The position numbers and the translations under genes were made by a program. Below, one piece after another: positions 5,893 through 50,856 of a stretch of DNA of 64,000 nt. Numbering within the stretch: the first letter of the stretch is position 1; each line of letters starts with the position of its first letter. The stretch is taken from contig NZ_CP108054.1 in the NCBI RefSeq assembly GCF_036173125.1, forward strand, positions 1,860,001 to 1,924,000. The letters are read 5' to 3'. This DNA is from Streptomyces sp. NBC_00286. Lineage in GTDB: Bacteria > Actinomycetota > Actinomycetes > Streptomycetales > Streptomycetaceae. The notes under the pieces were generated by a model, which saw only the letters and a program-made list of their open reading frames with translations, did not search any database and was not told where the DNA came from.

Positions 5893-7389
5893 ATGCGCCT
5901 ACTGCTCGTCCACCCCAGCGCCCTGCTGTACTCGGAGATCTTCCTGAGGCTGGAACCACTCGGTCTTGAACGAGTGGCCGGCGCCGCCCGCGACGCAGGT
6001 CATCAGGTACGAGTGGTGGACCTCCAGGTACTCGACCACGCGGATCTGCGGTCGGAACTGGCGTCCTTCCAGCCGGAAGCTCTCGGCATCTCGCTGAACT
6101 ACCTCGCCAACATCCCGGAGGCCATCGAGATCGCCCAGCGGACGAAACAGGCCGTACCCGGCTGTTTCGTCTTCTTCGGCGGCCACAGCGTCTCCTTCGT
6201 CGCCGAGGACGTACTCACCCAGGCGGCGGGCGCCGTAGACGCGGTGGTCCGCGGCGAGGGCGAACCGGTCATGGCGCCGCTGCTCGAAGCGGTCCGCGAC
6301 GGCGGCGTGGACGGCGTCCCGGGCGTGGTCACCGCGAACGGCCACGGGCCCGCGCCGCGGCTGCTGCACGGCATCGACGCGCCGCGCCCGGCCCGCGACC
6401 TGATGCGTCACCGCCGCCGGTACTTCATCGGGGAACTCGACCCGTGCGCCTCCATCGAGTTCACCCGCGGCTGCCCCTGGGACTGCTCGTTCTGCTCGGC
6501 GTGGACCTTCTACGGCCGCAGCTACCGCAAGGCGTCCCCGGAAGCGGCGGCCGAGGAGCTCGCGTCGATCCGGGAGCCGAACGTGTTCATCGTCGACGAC
6601 GTCGCGTTCATCCGTCCGGAGCACGGCGACGCCATCGCCGCAGAGGTGGAACGCCGGCGGATCCGCAAGCGCTACTACCTGGAGACCCGCAGCGACGTAC
6701 TGCTGCGCCACACGGAGGTTTTCGAGCGGTGGGCCCGGCTGGGGCTGAACTACATGTTCCTCGGGATGGAGGCGCTCGACGAGGAGGGCCTCGAGCTGTA
6801 CCGCAAACGGGTCAGTCCGGACGAGAACTTTCACGCTCTGGAGACGGCCCGCAAGCTCGGCATCAACGTCGCCATCAACCTGATCGTGGACCCGGCCTGG
6901 GACGAGGAACGCTTCCGGATCGTCCGCGAGTTCGCGCTGTCCGTACCGGAGATCGTCCACCTCACGGTGATGACGCCGTATCCGGGTACGGAGATCTGGC
7001 ACACCGAGTCACGCCGGCTGACCACCCGCGACTACCGGCTCTTCGACATCCAGCACGCCGTCGTGCCCACGGCACTGCCGCTCGACGTCTTCTACCGGGA
7101 GCTGGTCCGCACCCAGGCCGTACTGCACAAGAAGCACCTCGGTCTGCGCACCGCCTTCGGCGCGGCGCGGGTCCTCGGCCGCAACCTCGCCCACGGTCAG
7201 ACGAACTTCGCCCGCATGCTGTGGAAGTTCAACCGGGTCTACAACCCGCAGCGCCAGCTCGCCGACCACGCCCGCCCGGTCCGCTACGAACTCCCCCTGC
7301 CCCCGCACGCCGAGCTCGGCGACCGCCGCGAGCTGTACGTCCACACCCGGCCGGCCGCCCACGCCAAGCCGCCCGGGCCGCAGCACTGA
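5893..7389 (+). CDS. hpnR: B12-binding radical SAM protein, probable hopanoid C-3 methylase HpnR
   Basis: Class B radical SAM methylase-like protein of 498 residues. Residues 1-150 form a cobalamin-binding Rossmann domain. The 4Fe-4S motif CPWDCSFC has Cys 194, 198 and 201. Characteristic stretches such as LRLEPLGLERVAGAARDAGH near the N-terminus and GQTNFARMLWKFNRVYNP near the C-terminus match my recollection of HpnR, the enzyme that methylates C-3 of hopanoids. No squalene-hopene cyclase or other hpn gene is nearby, so the assignment rests on sequence alone. A clean GAGGTGA site precedes the ATG. The DMT transporter starts 30 bp downstream, suggesting co-transcription. A methylase for another lipid is the main alternative. 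Confidence 0.72.
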   Translation: MRLLLVHPSALLYSEIFLRLEPLGLERVAGAARDAGHQVRVVDLQVLDHADLRSELASFQPEALGISLNYLANIPEAIEIAQRTKQAVPGCFVFFGGHSVSFVAEDVLTQAAGAVDAVVRGEGEPVMAPLLEAVRDGGVDGVPGVVTANGHGPAPRLLHGIDAPRPARDLMRHRRRYFIGELDPCASIEFTRGCPWDCSFCSAWTFYGRSYRKASPEAAAEELASIREPNVFIVDDVAFIRPEHGDAIAAEVERRRIRKRYYLETRSDVLLRHTEVFERWARLGLNYMFLGMEALDEEGLELYRKRVSPDENFHALETARKLGINVAINLIVDPAWDEERFRIVREFALSVPEIVHLTVMTPYPGTEIWHTESRRLTTRDYRLFDIQHAVVPTALPLDVFYRELVRTQAVLHKKHLGLRTAFGAARVLGRNLAHGQTNFARMLWKFNRVYNPQRQLADHARPVRYELPLPPHAELGDRRELYVHTRPAAHAKPPGPQH

Positions 7390-36009: not shown

Positions 36010-36690
36010 CGGCGGTTCTCTTCCCCAACCCCGCCCCTTCCCGAAACTGAGGGCTGCGCCCACAGCCCCCGGCTGGGGGTGGGGCGCCTACGGCGGGTGG
36101 GTGGGTGGGTGGGTTCACGGGGTGGGTGGGGTGCCTATCGGGGTGGTGGGTGACAGTTGTGTCTCGGCTGCGGGTGCGTCGTGGCTGGTCGCGCAGTTCC
36201 CCGCGCCCCTAAAGGGGCGCCCCCGGAACCGTCAGCCACGAAGCTCACCAGCCGCCATGCTCGCCAGCCCCGACGAAACCGGCACTCTCCCGCCGGCGGG
36301 AGGGGACGTGGGCCGGTGCGTCCTATGCCCGTCGCTTAGCTTCGGTCTGGGCACACCAGCACCCTGTGGAAGCAAGGGGCCGTATGCCCTGTTGGCGACG
36401 GGCTGACGCACCGGACCGCGGCCCCGCACCCACCACGCACCCAAGGGGCGCGGGGAACTGCGCGACCAGCCACACACAACCCGCACCCGCCCAACCGCCG
36501 GAGGCACCCCGCGGGGCTGGCGCGACCAGCCGCGACGGCGCCGCACCCGCCAACGAACCCAACCGCGCCACCGCCGGAGGCACCCCGCGGGGCCGCGCCA
36601 CCAGCCCCAACGAACCCGCACCAAAAAACGAACCCCCATCCACCCCCGAACCCCCACGTGTAACCGCCGGAGGCATGGGCACTCGCGAGC
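36010..36690. repeat. Right arm of the long mirrored repeat region
   Basis: From inside out it carries TTCCCCAACCCCGCCCCTTC (36019-36038), a GGGTGGGTGGGTGGGTGG stretch, the GCGCAGTTCCCCGCGCCCCTA element (36190-36210), the AGGGGACGTGGGCCGGTGCG segment (36296-36315), a reversed GGGGCGCGGGGAACTGCGCG element (36446-36466), and several CCGCCGGAGGCACCCCGCGG copies (36500-36595). These are the reverse complement, in mirrored order, of elements at 32280-33115. No gene is supported in 35999-36720. Confidence 0.75.
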
Positions 36691-45424: not shown

Positions 45425-47185
45425 GTGCACCGACGTGTCTGGGGTCCGGCCGTCGCTCTCGCTCTTCTCATGATGGCGGTGCCGACCGCGTCCGCGAAGG
45501 CCGGGCTGCCCACCCGGACCGGGCCGCTCCCGCTGGAGCGGCTCTTCGACAACACGGCCGTCAGCGACGACGCGCGTCCCGGCGAGGCGGACTTCGACGG
45601 CTCGGGCGGCTCCCTGTCGGCTCGGGACCTGACCGCCGCGGGCTGGACGCCGGGCCGCACACTGACCGTCCAGGGCGCCCGGCTGACCTGGCCGCGCAAG
45701 GCGGCAGGGCAGCCGGACAACGTGCGCGCCGACGGCCAGCTGGTCCGGGTCCACGGTCGCGGCGACGCCCTCGCCTTCCTGGTGGCGGGCACGGCCGGTG
45801 ACGCGGCCACGGGCACGGGGGTGGTGCGGTACGCGAACGGCTCGCGCTCCACGTACCGGCTGACCGCCCCCGACTGGCGCCGCGGCCCCCTCGCCACCAA
45901 GGCCGTGGCACTGCCGCACGTCAACACGCCCGGCGGCCAACTCGCCGAGAAGGCACGGCTGTACGTCGTCACCGTGCCGCTCGCCGAAGGCCGGACCGTC
46001 GCCTCCGTGCAGCTGCCGCGCAACGACGACCTGCATGTGTTCGCGCTGTCGGTACGCGCCGACTCGCCCGGCTGGACGGGCAGTTGGGCCACTTCGACCT
46101 CCGGGTACGGGGCGGTCGGGCCCTGGACGGACCGGACGCTGCGCCTCGTGGTGCACACCTCGGCGGGCGGGCCGCGCGTACGGATCCGGCTGGACAACAC
46201 CTTCGCCGCCGCGCCCGTACGGATCGGGAGTGCGACGGTGGCGGTCCAGGGGTCCGGTGCGAGCCCGCGGAGTACCCCCGTGCCGCTGTCGTTCCGGGGT
46301 GCCGCCGGGACCGAAATCCCCGCGGGGGCACAGGCGTTCAGCGATCCGCTCGGCTTCGATGTGCCCGCGGACGCCAATCTGCTGGTGAGCTTCCATCTGC
46401 CGGGAACGGTGAGCGCCGCGCCCATGCACAGCCTGGCCGTCCAGCGGTCGTATCTCAGCGAGCCGGGCGACCATGCCGCGGACGCCGGCCCGGACGCGTA
46501 CACCTCGACGATCAGCAACTGGCCGCTGCTGACCGGTGTGGACGTGGGCGGTGGGCCCGGTTCCGTGGTGCTGCTCGGGGACTCGATCACCGACGGCGAG
46601 AAGTCGACGCCGGACGCGAACCTTCGCTGGGGCGATGTGCTCGCCAGGCGGTTGCGGGACCAGGACGTGGTCCCGCACTACGGGGTCCTGAACCACGGCA
46701 TCTCGGCGAATCGTGTGGTCTCCGACCGCTATCCGGGCGACGGCGTCTCCACCGATATGGGCGGCGTGAGCGCCCTGAACCGGCTCGACCGTGATGTCCT
46801 GGCGCAGACGTCGGCCCGTACGGTCGTTGTCTTCCAGGGCGTCAATGACGTGCGATGGGGTGCGAGTGCGGAGCAGGTCATCGCCGGGCTGCGCGAGATC
46901 GCCGACCGGGCGCATGCGCGTGGGCTGCGGGTGCTGGGCGCGACGATCGTTCCCTGCGAGGGGGAGGCTCGGTGCACTCCTGCCGCCGATGCGGGGCGCT
47001 CCGCTGTGAACGCGTGGATACGGGCCAGCTCCTCGTTTGACGGGGTGCTGGATTTTGATGCGGTGTTGCGGGATCCGGCGCGGCCTTCGCGGATGTTGCC
47101 CGCTTACGACAGTGGGGATCATCTGCATCCGGGCAATGCGGGGCTCGCTGCGCTGGCTGGGGCTGTGGACTTGCGGTTGCTGTAG
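45425..47185 (+). CDS. Secreted SGNH/GDSL hydrolase
   Basis: About 586 residues. The signal peptide (GPAVALALLMMAVPTASAKA) is followed by a beta-rich N-terminal domain of about 350 residues and a C-terminal SGNH domain. SGNH blocks: VLLGDSITDGE (Ser), HGISANRV (Gly/Asn block), VFQGVNDVRWG (GxND) and SGDHLHPGNAG (Asp/His). It is an exported esterase or lipase-like enzyme of the type often annotated as SGNH/GDSL hydrolase. GTG 45425 is preferred for its GGGAGGAG ribosome site about seven bases away. Confidence 0.88.
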   Translation: MHRRVWGPAVALALLMMAVPTASAKAGLPTRTGPLPLERLFDNTAVSDDARPGEADFDGSGGSLSARDLTAAGWTPGRTLTVQGARLTWPRKAAGQPDNVRADGQLVRVHGRGDALAFLVAGTAGDAATGTGVVRYANGSRSTYRLTAPDWRRGPLATKAVALPHVNTPGGQLAEKARLYVVTVPLAEGRTVASVQLPRNDDLHVFALSVRADSPGWTGSWATSTSGYGAVGPWTDRTLRLVVHTSAGGPRVRIRLDNTFAAAPVRIGSATVAVQGSGASPRSTPVPLSFRGAAGTEIPAGAQAFSDPLGFDVPADANLLVSFHLPGTVSAAPMHSLAVQRSYLSEPGDHAADAGPDAYTSTISNWPLLTGVDVGGGPGSVVLLGDSITDGEKSTPDANLRWGDVLARRLRDQDVVPHYGVLNHGISANRVVSDRYPGDGVSTDMGGVSALNRLDRDVLAQTSARTVVVFQGVNDVRWGASAEQVIAGLREIADRAHARGLRVLGATIVPCEGEARCTPAADAGRSAVNAWIRASSSFDGVLDFDAVLRDPARPSRMLPAYDSGDHLHPGNAGLAALAGAVDLRLL

Positions 47186-47240
47186 CGGCAGCGCCGCGGT
47201 GCCGCTTCGCGGAGGGGTTCGGCTGTGGGTCCGTCGTGGC

Positions 47241-48401
47241 TAGAGATCTTCAAGTGTCGGGGTTATGTCGAGCGCGGGGTGGTGACGGCTGACGTGGCGT
47301 CGGCTATGCCGGTTCCATGAGGTATCCCGACGGTGGTGGTCTGACCGCCGCGGAACGGGCTCGGCGGGAGCGGGTGTGGTTCGCAGCAGCCGAGAAGTTC
47401 GCCCATGGGGCGAGCGAGCCGGAGGTCGCCCGGCAGTTCAGAGTCTCAAGGATGTCGGCGAACCGCTGGCATCGGGCCTTCACCGAAGGCGGCGTCGAGG
47501 CGCTGGCCTCGAAGGGGCCGGGCGGCGCGCGCTGCAAGCTCGACGAGGCCCAGTTACGGGCCCTGGAGCAGGAACTGGAGGCCGGGCCTGCCGCGCACGG
47601 CTGGGATGAGGACCAGTGCTGGACCCTGGCGAGGATCACCGAGCTCATCGAGGCGAAGTTCGGTGTCGGCTACACCCTCGGCGGGGTGGACGCCCTGCTG
47701 CACCGTATCGGCTGGAGCGTGCAGGTCCCCACCAGGCGGGCCGCCGAACGCGACGAGGAGGAGATCGCCATCTGGAGGGATGAGCAGTGGCCCGTCATAA
47801 AGGACGGCGGCGGACCTGGGGGCCTGGCTGTGCTTCGAGGACGAGGCAGGCCAGGGCCTGAGGCCGCCCAAGGGCCGCATCTGGGGTCGGCGTGGCCGCA
47901 CCCCGCTGGTGCAGGTTTCCGCCGCTGGCTCCGGCCGCATCTCGCCGGCCGGTCTGGTTGCCACTCGCCCCGGCCGGGCGCCGCGGCTCATCTGCCGCAC
48001 CCGCCTGCACCGCCGCCGCAAGGGCGAGAAGAAGGGTTTCACCGAGACCGACTACGCGCGATTACTCGACGCCGCCCATCAGCAGCTCGGCGGCCCGATC
48101 GTCCTGATCTGGGACAATCTGAACACTCACCGCAGCAAGGCCATGCAGCAGCTGATCGCTGCCCGGCCGTGGCTGGTCGTCTACCAACTGCCCTCCTATG
48201 CGCCGGAACTCAACCCGATGGAGGCCGTGTGGTCCCACCTGAAGCGATCCCTGGCCAACCTCGCCAAGCGGACCATCGACCAGCTCGCCAGGATTGTGAA
48301 GACCCGCCTCAAGCGGATGCAGTACCGTCCCGCCCTCATCGCCGGATTCATCACCAAGACCGGCCTCGACCAGCCGCAATAACACCAGCTGAAGGTCTCT
48401 A
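47241..48401 (+). mobile_element. IS630-family insertion sequence
   Basis: TA dinucleotides at 47241-47242 and 48400-48401 flank inverted ends. The left end begins GAGATCTTCAAGTGTCGGGG, and the reverse complement of the right end begins GAGACCTTCAGCTGGTGTTA. TA target duplication and a DDE transposase match IS630/Tc1-mariner. The right TA overlaps the stop codon of the HMA-domain gene. A third, related end lies at about 49837-49863 (see that entry). Confidence 0.85.
47317..48382 (+). CDS. IS630-family transposase in two frames (programmed or mutational +1 shift)
   Basis: The first frame (from ATG 47317) gives the HTH part: [22 protein letters not shown] and [23 protein letters not shown]. 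The DDE part is in the +1 frame: the shift is needed near 47800-47804 (ATAAAGG), after which [32 protein letters not shown] and [17 protein letters not shown] supply Asp, Asp and Glu. A +1 programmed frameshift is possible, as in other two-frame IS630 elements. A single-base insertion would instead make it inactive. The gene has at least two TTA Leu codons, rare in Streptomyces. Confidence 0.82.
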
Positions 48402-48614
48402 GCCAAACCGGTCGTCGAGTTCATAGCCGGCTTCCTCGACCGCAGCGCGCACGTCCGCGATGTCGAGATCCCTGTCGCTGGTCACCGTGACCGTGCCGCT
48501 CTCGACGTTCACCGCCACGGCGGTGACGCCGGCGACGTGTTGAATCTCCTCGGTGACGAAGCCTGCGCAGTGGTCGCAGACCATTCCGCTCACGGTGTAG
48601 GTGCTCTCGGTCAC
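48399..48614 (-). CDS. Heavy-metal-associated (CopZ-like) domain protein
   Basis: Copper-chaperone-like HMA domain of 71 residues: the metal motif GMVCDHC at about 10-16 and the typical beta-alpha-beta ending [24 protein letters not shown]. Its ATG overlaps the NTF2-like gene stop as ATGA. The C-terminus (DDRFG) ends exactly in the IS630 right-end TA, so the original stop may have been altered by the insertion. It probably carries Cu or a similar metal. Confidence 0.88.
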
Positions 48615-49054
48615 GCCGGCCGCACCTGCCCCTCGGACACCTCTGGCGCCGGCTGTCCCGGGCCGGCGTCCGCTGGGAGGGTGCGGGTGAGTATGTGTGC
48701 CTGGCGCATCCGCCCGTCATCGGTGAACTGAGCGAACATGTGCGCCTCGATGGCGAGGGCTCTGTTGCGGTTCTGTACATACAAGGTGGACCGGACGGCG
48801 ATCCGATCCCCGTTCACCAGTGCTTCATGCACATCCCAGCGGCCGCTGGGCCGGTTCTTGCGCACCGGGCGAGTGTGCGCGATGAGCTTGTCCCGGTCCA
48901 TCCGGTGTCCGTCGGCGATCTGGACGATGTCCGGTGTGTGATAGCGGTCGACGATCAGTCCCGGGTCCTCGTCGCTGTCCAGGAGGTCGTTGTGGAAGGA
49001 CGCATAGAAATCGGCGATGAACTGCTTGGGGTCGGTGTCGTTGAACGGACTCAT
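48611..49054 (-). CDS. NTF2-like (SnoaL-type) nuclear transport factor 2 family protein
   Basis: 147 residues with the NTF2-like cone fold: FIADFYASFHNDLLDSDEDPGLIVDRYHTPDIVQIADGHRMDRDKLIAH is the typical first half, followed by strands ALVNGDRIAVRSTLYVQNR and MFAQFTDDGRMRQAHILTRT. Families of this fold include isomerases and hydrolases as well as unassigned proteins, so the role is open. It is the first gene of the two-gene unit with the HMA protein, divergent from the TetR regulator. Confidence 0.8.
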   Translation of the reverse strand: MSPFNDTDPKQFIADFYASFHNDLLDSDEDPGLIVDRYHTPDIVQIADGHRMDRDKLIAHTRPVRKNRPSGRWDVHEALVNGDRIAVRSTLYVQNRNRALAIEAHMFAQFTDDGRMRQAHILTRTLPADAGPGQPAPEVSEGQVRPA

Positions 49055-49089
49055 GGTGCTCCCGTCACGCTGCTGGTCGGCGCACTATC

Positions 49090-49106
49090 TCTTACAGTCT
49101 GTAAGA
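49090..49106. promoter_or_regulatory. Palindromic operator TCTTACAGTCTGTAAGA between NTF2-like and TetR genes
   Basis: A perfect 8-1-8 palindrome, with a further half site GTGTAAGA at 49134-49141 next to the TetR start. TTGACA at 49126-49131 fits a -35 box of the tetR promoter only if transcription starts inside the gene, so it may instead be incidental. The location between divergent genes is typical for TetR autoregulation. Confidence 0.78.
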
Positions 49107-49142
49107 TATGCACCCTCCCGCAATATTGACAAGGTGTAAGAA

Positions 49143-49820
49143 ATGACTCCACGCCAGGCGCCGCATCGCCGTGCCGACGCCCAGCGCAGCCGGGCCGCCA
49201 TCCTGGACGCGGCGGTCCGGCTCCTGAACACACATCCCGACACCAGCGTCGAAGTCATCGCCACCGCCGCAGGCGTGACTCGCCAGACCGTCTACGCCCA
49301 CTTCCCCTCGCGGGAACAACTGCTGACAGCAGCCCTCGACCGGATCACCGAGGAAGCGGTCGCCGCGATGGACGCCGCCGGCCTTGACACGGGACCTGCT
49401 GTGGATGCCCTGCTGCGACTGCTCGATGCCAGCAACCGGACAGCCGGGCGATACCCCGTCCTGCTCCAGAAGATCAGCCTGCTGCCCGTTGATCCGCACA
49501 CCGACCACGAACGCCATGCGCCGGTCGCCGACCGGCTGAAGCGGGTGATCCAGCGCGGTCAGGAGACCGGGGAATTCGGGGGCGGACTCTCCCCGGACTG
49601 GCTCGTCGCTGTCACCATCAACCTCGGCCACGCTGCGAGCGCCGAGGTAGACGCCGGCCGGATGTCCAGCGAGGAGGCAGCGGAAGCACTCCACACCAGT
49701 CTGCTCCGCGTGTTGGGCGCAGTCGCGCCGACAGGAACCCCGACACGAGAGGAGGGTGCCCCTGCCGCTCGCAGCGCCGCCAAAGCCAAGGGTGCGAAGC
49801 TCCGCAATCCTCAGAAATGA
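49143..49820 (+). CDS. TetR-family transcriptional regulator
   Basis: 225 residues. The HTH at about 15-65 (RAAILDAAVRLLNTHPDTSVEVIATAAGVTRQTVYAHFPSREQLL) is textbook TetR/AcrR, followed by an all-helical ligand-binding domain and a Lys/Ala-rich tail. An AAGGTG ribosome site lies six bases before ATG. It is divergent from the NTF2-like and HMA genes across the TCTTACAG palindrome and presumably represses them. The inducer is unknown; a metal or oxidative cue is plausible from the HMA neighbour. Confidence 0.9.
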   Translation: MTPRQAPHRRADAQRSRAAILDAAVRLLNTHPDTSVEVIATAAGVTRQTVYAHFPSREQLLTAALDRITEEAVAAMDAAGLDTGPAVDALLRLLDASNRTAGRYPVLLQKISLLPVDPHTDHERHAPVADRLKRVIQRGQETGEFGGGLSPDWLVAVTINLGHAASAEVDAGRMSSEEAAEALHTSLLRVLGAVAPTGTPTREEGAPAARSAAKAKGAKLRNPQK

Positions 49821-49836
49821 CAGAGGACCTTCAGTC

Positions 49837-49863
49837 GCCGTAACGCCAACCTTTGAAGGTCTC
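49837..49863. repeat. IS630-like terminal repeat downstream of tetR
   Basis: The + strand ends TAACGCCAACCTTTGAAGGT then CTC. Its reverse complement begins GAGACCTTCAAAGGTTGGCG, close to the IS630 left end GAGATCTTCAAGTGTCGGGG and to the right end of the adjacent IS. The next bases (AAGTCGCGTAGTTCC) continue the dispersed repeat that the left end interrupts at 47240. A GACCTTCA...TGAAGGTC inverted pair at 49826-49861 could also act as a terminator. Confidence 0.7.
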
Positions 49864-50010
49864 AAGTCGCGTAGTTCCCCAGCCCCGCCCTTTCCCGAGA
49901 CTGGGGGCTGCGCCCCACACCCCCGCCAGGGGATGGTGGGTGACACTACGTGTCGCGGCTGCCGGTCCGTTGTGGCTGGTCGCGCAGTTCCCCGCGCCCC
50001 TATAGGGGCG
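49864..50010. repeat. Dispersed Streptomyces intergenic repeats
   Basis: This block contains GTCGCGTAGTTCCCCAGCCC, a GACTGGGGGCTGCGCCCCAC segment, and a full GTGGCTGGTCGCGCAGTTCC, CCGCGCCCCTATAGGGGCGC element at about 49973-50011. The same elements occur at 32.5-33.1 and 36.0-36.5 kb. No gene is seen in 49821-50076. Confidence 0.75.
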
Positions 50011-50076
50011 CTCCCGTGCGGGGCGGTTCCGAAGGGCGCCCCCAGACAGGCGCCCGGATGCACCGAAGCGCCATGC

Positions 50077-50856
50077 CTACACGTCCAAGTCCACTACCAC
50101 CGGAGCGTGGTCCGACGCGCCCTTGCCCTTTCGCTCCTCCCTGTCGACGTACGAGTCCTTGACCGCCTTGGTGAAGGGCTCGTTGCCGTAGACCAAGTCG
50201 ATTCGCATGCCTCGGTTTTTGGGGAAGCAGAGTTGGCGGTAGTCCCAGTACGTGTAGGGGTGGTCGTACTTGAGGGGGCGCGGGATCACGTCCGTGAGGC
50301 CGGACTCGCGGAGTTCGGTGAGGGCGGCTCGTTCGGCGGGGGTGACGTGGGTGGAGCCCTCGAAGGCTGCGATGTCGTAGACGTCTTCGTCCGTCGGGGC
50401 GATGTTGTAGTCGCCCAGGACCGCGAAGGGGCGGCTGCCGGACGCGTCGCCCGCTACCGCTGCCTTGAGGGCCTCGATCCACTGGAGTTTGTAGGCGAAG
50501 TGGGGGTGGTCCACCTCTCGGCCGTTCGGCACGTACACCGACCAGACGCGGATCGGGCCGCAGGTCGCCGCTATGGCGCGGGGCTCCTGGACGCCGTCGT
50601 AACCGGGGTCGCCGGGCAGGCCCTTGACCACGTCTTCGAGGCCTGCGCGGGAGATCACCGCCACGCCGTTCCACCGGCCTGTCGCGTGCACCGCCGACTC
50701 GTAGCCCAGCTTGGTCAGTTCGTCGGTGGGGAACTGCTCGGCGGTGGTCTTGGCCTCCTGGAGGCACAGCACGTCGGTGCCGCTGCTCTCCAGCCAGGCC
50801 AGCAGCCTGGGGAGGCGGGCGGTGATCGAGTTCACGTTCCAGGTGGCAATCCGCAT
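50077..50856 (-). CDS. xth: Exodeoxyribonuclease III
   Basis: AP endonuclease/exonuclease of 259 residues. Motifs include ATWNVNSITARLPRLLAWL and VLCLQEAKT (metal Glu), YVPNGR, GDYNIAPTDEDVYD and the C-terminal GASDHAPVVVDLDV with its Asp-His pair. The length is standard for XthA. It repairs abasic sites in base-excision repair. It lies about 50 bp downstream of the MBL-fold gene on the same strand. Confidence 0.92.
   Translation of the reverse strand: MRIATWNVNSITARLPRLLAWLESSGTDVLCLQEAKTTAEQFPTDELTKLGYESAVHATGRWNGVAVISRAGLEDVVKGLPGDPGYDGVQEPRAIAATCGPIRVWSVYVPNGREVDHPHFAYKLQWIEALKAAVAGDASGSRPFAVLGDYNIAPTDEDVYDIAAFEGSTHVTPAERAALTELRESGLTDVIPRPLKYDHPYTYWDYRQLCFPKNRGMRIDLVYGNEPFTKAVKDSYVDREERKGKGASDHAPVVVDLDV

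Follow-up and report, generated by a model that had tools for sequence, protein, structure and literature searches.

The usual picture of an IS630-type element is that of a transposase gene and nothing more, and the question raised by the locus described here is whether one such element has become a carrier of other genes. The locus lies in a 64,000-nucleotide stretch of the genome of Streptomyces sp. NBC_00286 (NZ_CP108054.1, positions 1,860,001 to 1,924,000; referred to as the window, whose numbering is used throughout), a genome consisting of one contig of 9.85 Mb. An earlier note on this DNA had proposed that the transposase of an IS630 insertion sequence (IS) and an adjoining cassette, made up of a heavy-metal-associated (HMA) gene, an NTF2-like gene and a tetR gene, were delivered together by one transposition event. 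Comparison with other genomes supports this view, and we put at about 0.85 the probability that positions 47243-49863 represent a cargo-carrying IS630 transposon, in which the transposase would pair the left end of the IS with a distal right end beyond tetR and not with the inner right end. The parts of the unit are as follows.

47243-49863 (2621 bp): the whole mobile unit, made up of IS630, HMA, SnoaL/NTF2-like and tetR genes and closed by a second right end
47241-47242: TA target dinucleotide at the left outer end; TA stands there also in the copies of genome G342 and Streptomyces olindensis
47243-47272, minus strand: left terminal repeat (IRL), weight-matrix score 35.0
47243-48399, plus strand: IS630 element with IS630/DDE_3 profile matches, TA at 47241-47242 and 48400-48401
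47317-48382, plus strand: IS630 transposase in two half-frames, the helix-turn-helix (HTH) half from 47317 and the DDE half at 47909-48382
48373-48399, plus strand: inner right end, lacking 3 bp relative to the family ends
48400-48401: TA between the inner right end and the cargo, forming with base 48399 the stop codon of the HMA gene
48399-48614, minus strand: HMA gene, CopZ-like (Pfam HMA, 7.7e-16)
48611-49054, minus strand: SnoaL/NTF2-like gene (Pfam SnoaL_2, 6e-07), overlapping the HMA start by 4 bases
49091-49105: palindrome CTTACAGTCTGTAAG, proposed TetR operator, overlapping the promoter-like site of the SnoaL-HMA pair
49132-49103, minus strand: promoter-like site, a consensus match only (shuffles average 0.2)
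49143-49820, plus strand: tetR-family regulator gene, divergent from the SnoaL-HMA pair (Pfam TetR_N, 2.5e-11)
49834-49863, plus strand: distal right end (IRR'), score 23.6, with likeness to sister right ends reaching back to about 49826
49864-49865: AA at the right outer end, instead of the expected TA, which both G342 and S. olindensis have there

Terminal repeats were scored with a 30-column weight matrix for which sister IS630 copies, but not the present unit, supplied 29 ends, 15 left and 14 right; the right ends came from those of 26 sister IS630 loci in which the terminus was clear, and family ends score 5.5-48.8 when left out of the matrix. Within the 64 kb window, both strands included, only IRL (35.0) and IRR' (23.6) exceed zero, the next best place reaching -0.7, and the third end is therefore not attributable to chance. 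The IS630 with TA on both sides that had first been recognised was confirmed, and the IS-related end noticed just after tetR, the reverse complement of which begins GAGACCTTCAAAGGTTGGCGTTACGG, proved to be real; it lies at 49834-49863, and a correction is needed only for the dinucleotide to its right, which is AA and not TA.

Evidence for movement of the unit comes from its copies in other genomes. In a genus sample of 392 genomes, the window's included, with two candidates scored per genome, the full unit from IRL to IRR' was matched besides the window only in G342, a metagenome-assembled genome (MAG) of the same genus, at 96.3% identity over 2.63 kb. A third full copy, also at 96.3%, is present in S. 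olindensis (L040) and was found by a scan with the TetR protein that covered one genome per species and kept the best 80 loci; among these the IS is carried only by L040 and by L041, the unit of G342. The two further copies have TA at both outer ends, compared with TA and AA in the window, the endpoint of the unit is identical in all three, and the three insertion sites show no mutual similarity in 2 kb of flank per side. Thus the same unit was found at other TA sites, as the earlier note had suggested should be looked for, and the distal end stands next to TA in two further genomes as well as, in decayed form, in S. phytophilus (L042, the same match as G050), where only a piece of tetR accompanies it. 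A single full copy was seen in each of the three genomes (40 candidates scored in the window genome and S. olindensis, two in G342). Among the copies the IS is 96.1-96.6% and the cargo 96.2-97.3% identical. Three IS copies of more than 77% identity were found, every one with cargo; G342 aside, other IS copies in the genus sample are 69-77% identical to that of the window, and the cargo was not seen within the stretches fetched for the 26 sister IS630 loci. Between the window and either G342 or S. olindensis, identity is 86-87% for the host xth gene but 96% for the unit, and because of this difference the unit has probably moved between species. None of 131 matching plasmid records covers 80% of the unit, those among the 20 matches listed being IS-only or cassette-only. 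Phages gave one match, of 180 nt (H33, MT835669.1 9239-9418, a record labelled Bacteriophage sp. from human faecal samples), 73% like the HMA gene; the record is possibly mislabelled bacterial DNA.

Empty sites were found for two of the insertions. In G009 the flanks are continuous across the junction of the G342 copy over 361 bp, with 313/361 bases identical (87%) and TG at the place of the TA target. For the window site, comparison of xth loci (46 of 61 genomes matched; 30 loci fetched, the window's own and 29 relatives, in stretches of up to 1.5 kb) showed a GDSL lipase gene beside xth with neither IS nor cassette in 9 of the 29 relatives, the matched ends lying 27-124 bp apart; no lipase was found within the fetched stretch in the remaining 20. 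A cassette lacking the IS at this place was not seen in any of the nine. The joined flanks of the window read ...GGGTCCGTCGTGGC-TA-GTCGCGTAGTTCCCCAGCCCC, a variant of an intergenic repeat, and elsewhere in the same genome (L003) a copy of this variant runs unbroken through the junction position. In place of the CTA of the joined flanks, L003 shows GTT, and among 100 core places listed the target position is always TG and never TA. The repeat core, GTGGCTRGTCGCGYAGTTCCCC, has 154 exact copies in the genome (a control pattern has 0), two of them in the window at 36177-36202 and 49968-49993. With a 96% identical unit at two unrelated sites and TA at both of its outer ends there, transposition of the whole unit, transposase and cassette in one event, appears very probable.

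It had also been suggested that the right end of the IS is a second, closer end. The inner right end is indeed kept in all three copies, and in all three it is 3 bp short: its TAA lies 17 nt from the end, compared with 20 nt in IRR', while 13 of the 14 sister right ends have TAA or TAG at 20 nt and the remaining one has CAG. The bases are missing where the outermost 10 bp of the repeat join its inner portion, and because of this loss the inner right end falls below zero (-1.9 in the window, -9.8 and -13.7 in the other copies), recovering to 21-24 if three columns are skipped; across the three copies IRL scores 21-35 and IRR' 22-24. We read this as a near right end that is crippled and a far one that is intact. 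Being 3 bp short, the inner end is probably a poor substrate, and the transposase would instead cut and paste the IS together with HMA-SnoaL-tetR, the cargo being locked in. We would give even odds that the crippled inner end is the reason for co-transfer of the cargo.

The origin of IRR' is a separate matter. Against the 14 sister right ends it matches at 21-30 of 38 bases (30/38 at best), and its inner 28 bases form the best place in the unit for likeness to sister right ends (21/28, the next place reaching 18). As IRR' resembles sister right ends more than does any other place in the unit, its most likely source is a lost second IS630. It is thus likely to be a relict IS630 end, left by an element that once lay beyond tetR, in which case the unit would probably be an ancestral composite that has been reduced on the right. 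Alternatively the transposase could have misread an unrelated repeat-like sequence past tetR and so fixed the unit, in the manner of transposable modules (TMos). One IS together with adjacent DNA is the layout of TMo and ISEcp1 units as described in PMC9330008, and a search of 391 order-level genomes yielded no IS630 that could be the donor of the distal end. Nonetheless IRR' fits the family end over all 30 bp and with its spacing intact, it is the place in the unit closest to sister right ends, and the endpoints of TMos are variable, where here they are the same in three copies; a surrogate end is accordingly an unlikely source.

Less likely still is a nested order of events: the cassette, with IRR' as its limit, would already have been part of an older IS630 unit, and the left portion of that unit was later either replaced by the present IS or became its insertion site, the inner right end arriving with this IS. 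With a TA of its own, the inner right end does resemble a complete IS insertion, and in ungapped alignment IRR' matches the inner end at just 8 of 38 bases (the inner coordinate being off by one) compared with 21-30 of 38 for sister right ends. Against this, apart from the decayed S. phytophilus piece, no cassette was found in which IRR' is combined with another left part, and the similar divergence of IS and cargo among the copies makes the order unreadable.

Two further explanations do without any use of the distal end. The unit might have spread only passively, by plasmids, integrative and conjugative elements or homologous recombination, and the lesser likeness of host xth does suggest that some vehicle probably moved it between species. 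This is very improbable as the sole explanation given the lack of flank similarity past the TA-bounded ends and the unbroken site in G009, and it was rejected on the basis of the absence of a shared flank in 2 kb per side, the existence of two further copies, and the empty sites. The least credible possibility, that an ordinary IS630 happens to stand beside a resident cassette with a coincidental third end, could draw on the many actinomycetes that have IS-free cassette relatives, but it was rejected on the second and third copies at unrelated sites, with the same ends, and on the empty sites, including the nine relatives without the cassette at the window site.

A second IS630 unit of the same design, carrying a different cargo, was found among the sister elements.

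L132 1501-3376 (genome G236): second IS630 unit, with IS, inner right end, 0.7 kb of cargo and a distal right end next to TA
L213 1787-2821 (genome G262): another copy with the same layout
L214 (genome G095): a decayed copy without the distal end

L132 is one of the 26 sister IS630 loci, and its second right end lies 731 bp past the first. The cargo is a convergent gene whose 142-aa product is matched by no Pfam family above cut-off, and the cargo stretch was matched in 5 of 382 genus genomes, G236 included. In G262 the IS is internally deleted and the left repeat is reduced to about six bases, with TA at both outer ends; the left dinucleotide in G236 is TG. Outside the unit G236 and G262 have no similarity in 6 kb each, save for matches of 28-30 bp, the size of an IS end. 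An empty site for the G262 copy is indicated by joined-flank alignments that span the junction in four of five loci examined out of eight fetched (L217, L221, L222 and L223, not L218), the part to the right of the junction comprising 16-49 matched bases. Since this unit has the same design and a different cargo, the two-right-end layout is, on these comparisons, recurrent, and it is common to two unrelated cargoes, TetR-SnoaL-HMA and the 142-aa protein; only in the first unit is the inner end crippled. We suggest tentatively, and with more doubt than conviction, that IS630 elements of Streptomyces may repeatedly become gene carriers by switching to the distal relict end of a sister IS630, that the switch can be fixed by a small loss of spacing in the near end, and that a self-regulated operon may then be passed on with the element.

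Several observations weigh against the interpretation of 47243-49863 as a cargo-carrying transposon with a crippled near end and a relict far one. Only three full copies are known (two in the 392 genus genomes, the window's included, plus S. olindensis), and the dinucleotide to the right of the third end in the window is AA, not TA. The base-exact junction of the window copy rests on repeat copies within the same genome, and the dispersed repeat was present in the gap of one relative only (G032) among the seven of nine gaps inspected. A joined empty site for S. olindensis was not found in 80 relatives, its two flanks matching different places. With regard to IRR', IS630 likeness beyond the repeat itself amounts to 10 bases, of which 1-7 match, which is too short for proof; the query used in the donor search (49780-49866) matched only the window genome, with two candidates scored per genome; and the distal end of S. 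phytophilus scores -16.5. Finally, the inner right end of G236 scores normally (38.1), and a crippled inner end is thus not needed for the layout.

The cargo itself appears to be a working cassette. HMA proteins bind metals such as copper, and the HMA gene is matched by CopZ-type NCBIfam models below their own cut-offs, while the SnoaL-like protein has no NCBIfam match and no PDB sequence match at E 0.1. IS-free relatives of the cassette are common in actinomycetes, including Streptomyces, Nonomuraea, Micromonospora, Nocardia, Amycolatopsis, Actinomadura and other genera. Among the best 80 TetR loci, the two with the IS included, a SnoaL-like gene lies within 3 kb of tetR in 60, and HMA is present too in 33 of these 60; on one Streptomyces plasmid the SnoaL-tetR pair adjoins oxidoreductase genes instead. 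The palindrome CTTACAGTCTGTAAG, located in the window between tetR and SnoaL and over the promoter-like site, recurs, with no more than 3 mismatches, in 17 of the 23 IS-free loci tested, and it is probably from here that TetR represses the divergent SnoaL-HMA pair. Among the three copies dN/dS (the ratio of non-synonymous to synonymous substitution rates) is 0.10-0.42 in eight of nine cargo gene comparisons, the ninth (HMA) giving 0.62 on three changes in all, compared with 0.40-0.79 for the transposase halves. The low cargo values relative to the transposase halves, and the retention of the palindrome, suggest that the cassette is probably functional. An Rfam search of 46500-50500 gave no match at gathering score. 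In S. hainanensis (L036), which has the closest IS-free cassette (89%), GGAGACCTTGA is present just past HMA at about 6460-6495, in register with the inner IS end, which may be either chance or a scar.

The transposase is recognisable in both halves (Pfam HTH_33, 3.6e-22, and DDE_3, 1.7e-17; NCBIfam transpos_IS630, 3.1e-23 and 1.6e-21, with neither half reaching the 100 bits required of a full-length match). At the junction of the half-frames sister copies contain a run rich in A (often ATAAAAAG), and in plasmid records such ISs are mostly given as two genes. By analogy, the arrangement would fit a programmed frameshift like that proposed for ISHsp2, a published two-frame IS630 (PMC3606827). 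The A-rich junction (about 47795-47810 in the window) differs among the three copies, and in the window it is one base shorter than in the other two, with the halves one base off in register. Because of the shorter run the window transposase may be defective, and with the change of register and the AA at the right outer end the window copy is probably no longer autonomous.

In its TA target, present at both ends in G342 and S. olindensis, its two-frame transposase with HTH and DDE_3 domains and its family terminal inverted repeats, the unit is like other members of the IS630 family (IS630-Tc1-mariner superfamily), from which it differs in having two right ends and three non-transposition genes inside. 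In TMos and ISEcp1-type units, of the IS1380 family, a single IS likewise takes along the DNA next to it as far as a second end downstream (PMC9330008); here, however, the IS family is different, the endpoint is fixed (the same in three of three copies, not variable) and the second end is a full family end and not a loose look-alike. Transporter ISs (tIS), according to the same source, carry passengers including a regulator between their ends, and the present unit also has its passengers, a regulator among them, between the outer ends, but it retains the original inner right end. A composite transposon such as Tn6682, in which two isoISAba14 copies enclose a tetR gene and one for an alkyl sulfatase (PMC7031236), similarly has cargo with tetR between two ends of the same IS family; the present unit, in contrast, has one IS, the right one, if ever present, having been reduced to about 38 bp, and no bracketing pair of ISs was found. 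Judged by its sequence the unit works like a transposable module or a transporter IS built on the IS630 family. An IS630 unit with cargo of this design was not found among the matches listed from the open-licence full-text literature, most subscription papers and the supplements falling outside it, which does not prove that none has been described.

A compact, TA-flanked unit with a probably regulated, metal-handling-like operon in three genomes provides a defined natural case of an IS turned gene carrier. Annotation that ends at the first right end of such an IS will miss its cargo. The unit also raises the question of whether the loss of 3 bp of spacing in one end redirects the transposase to the next.

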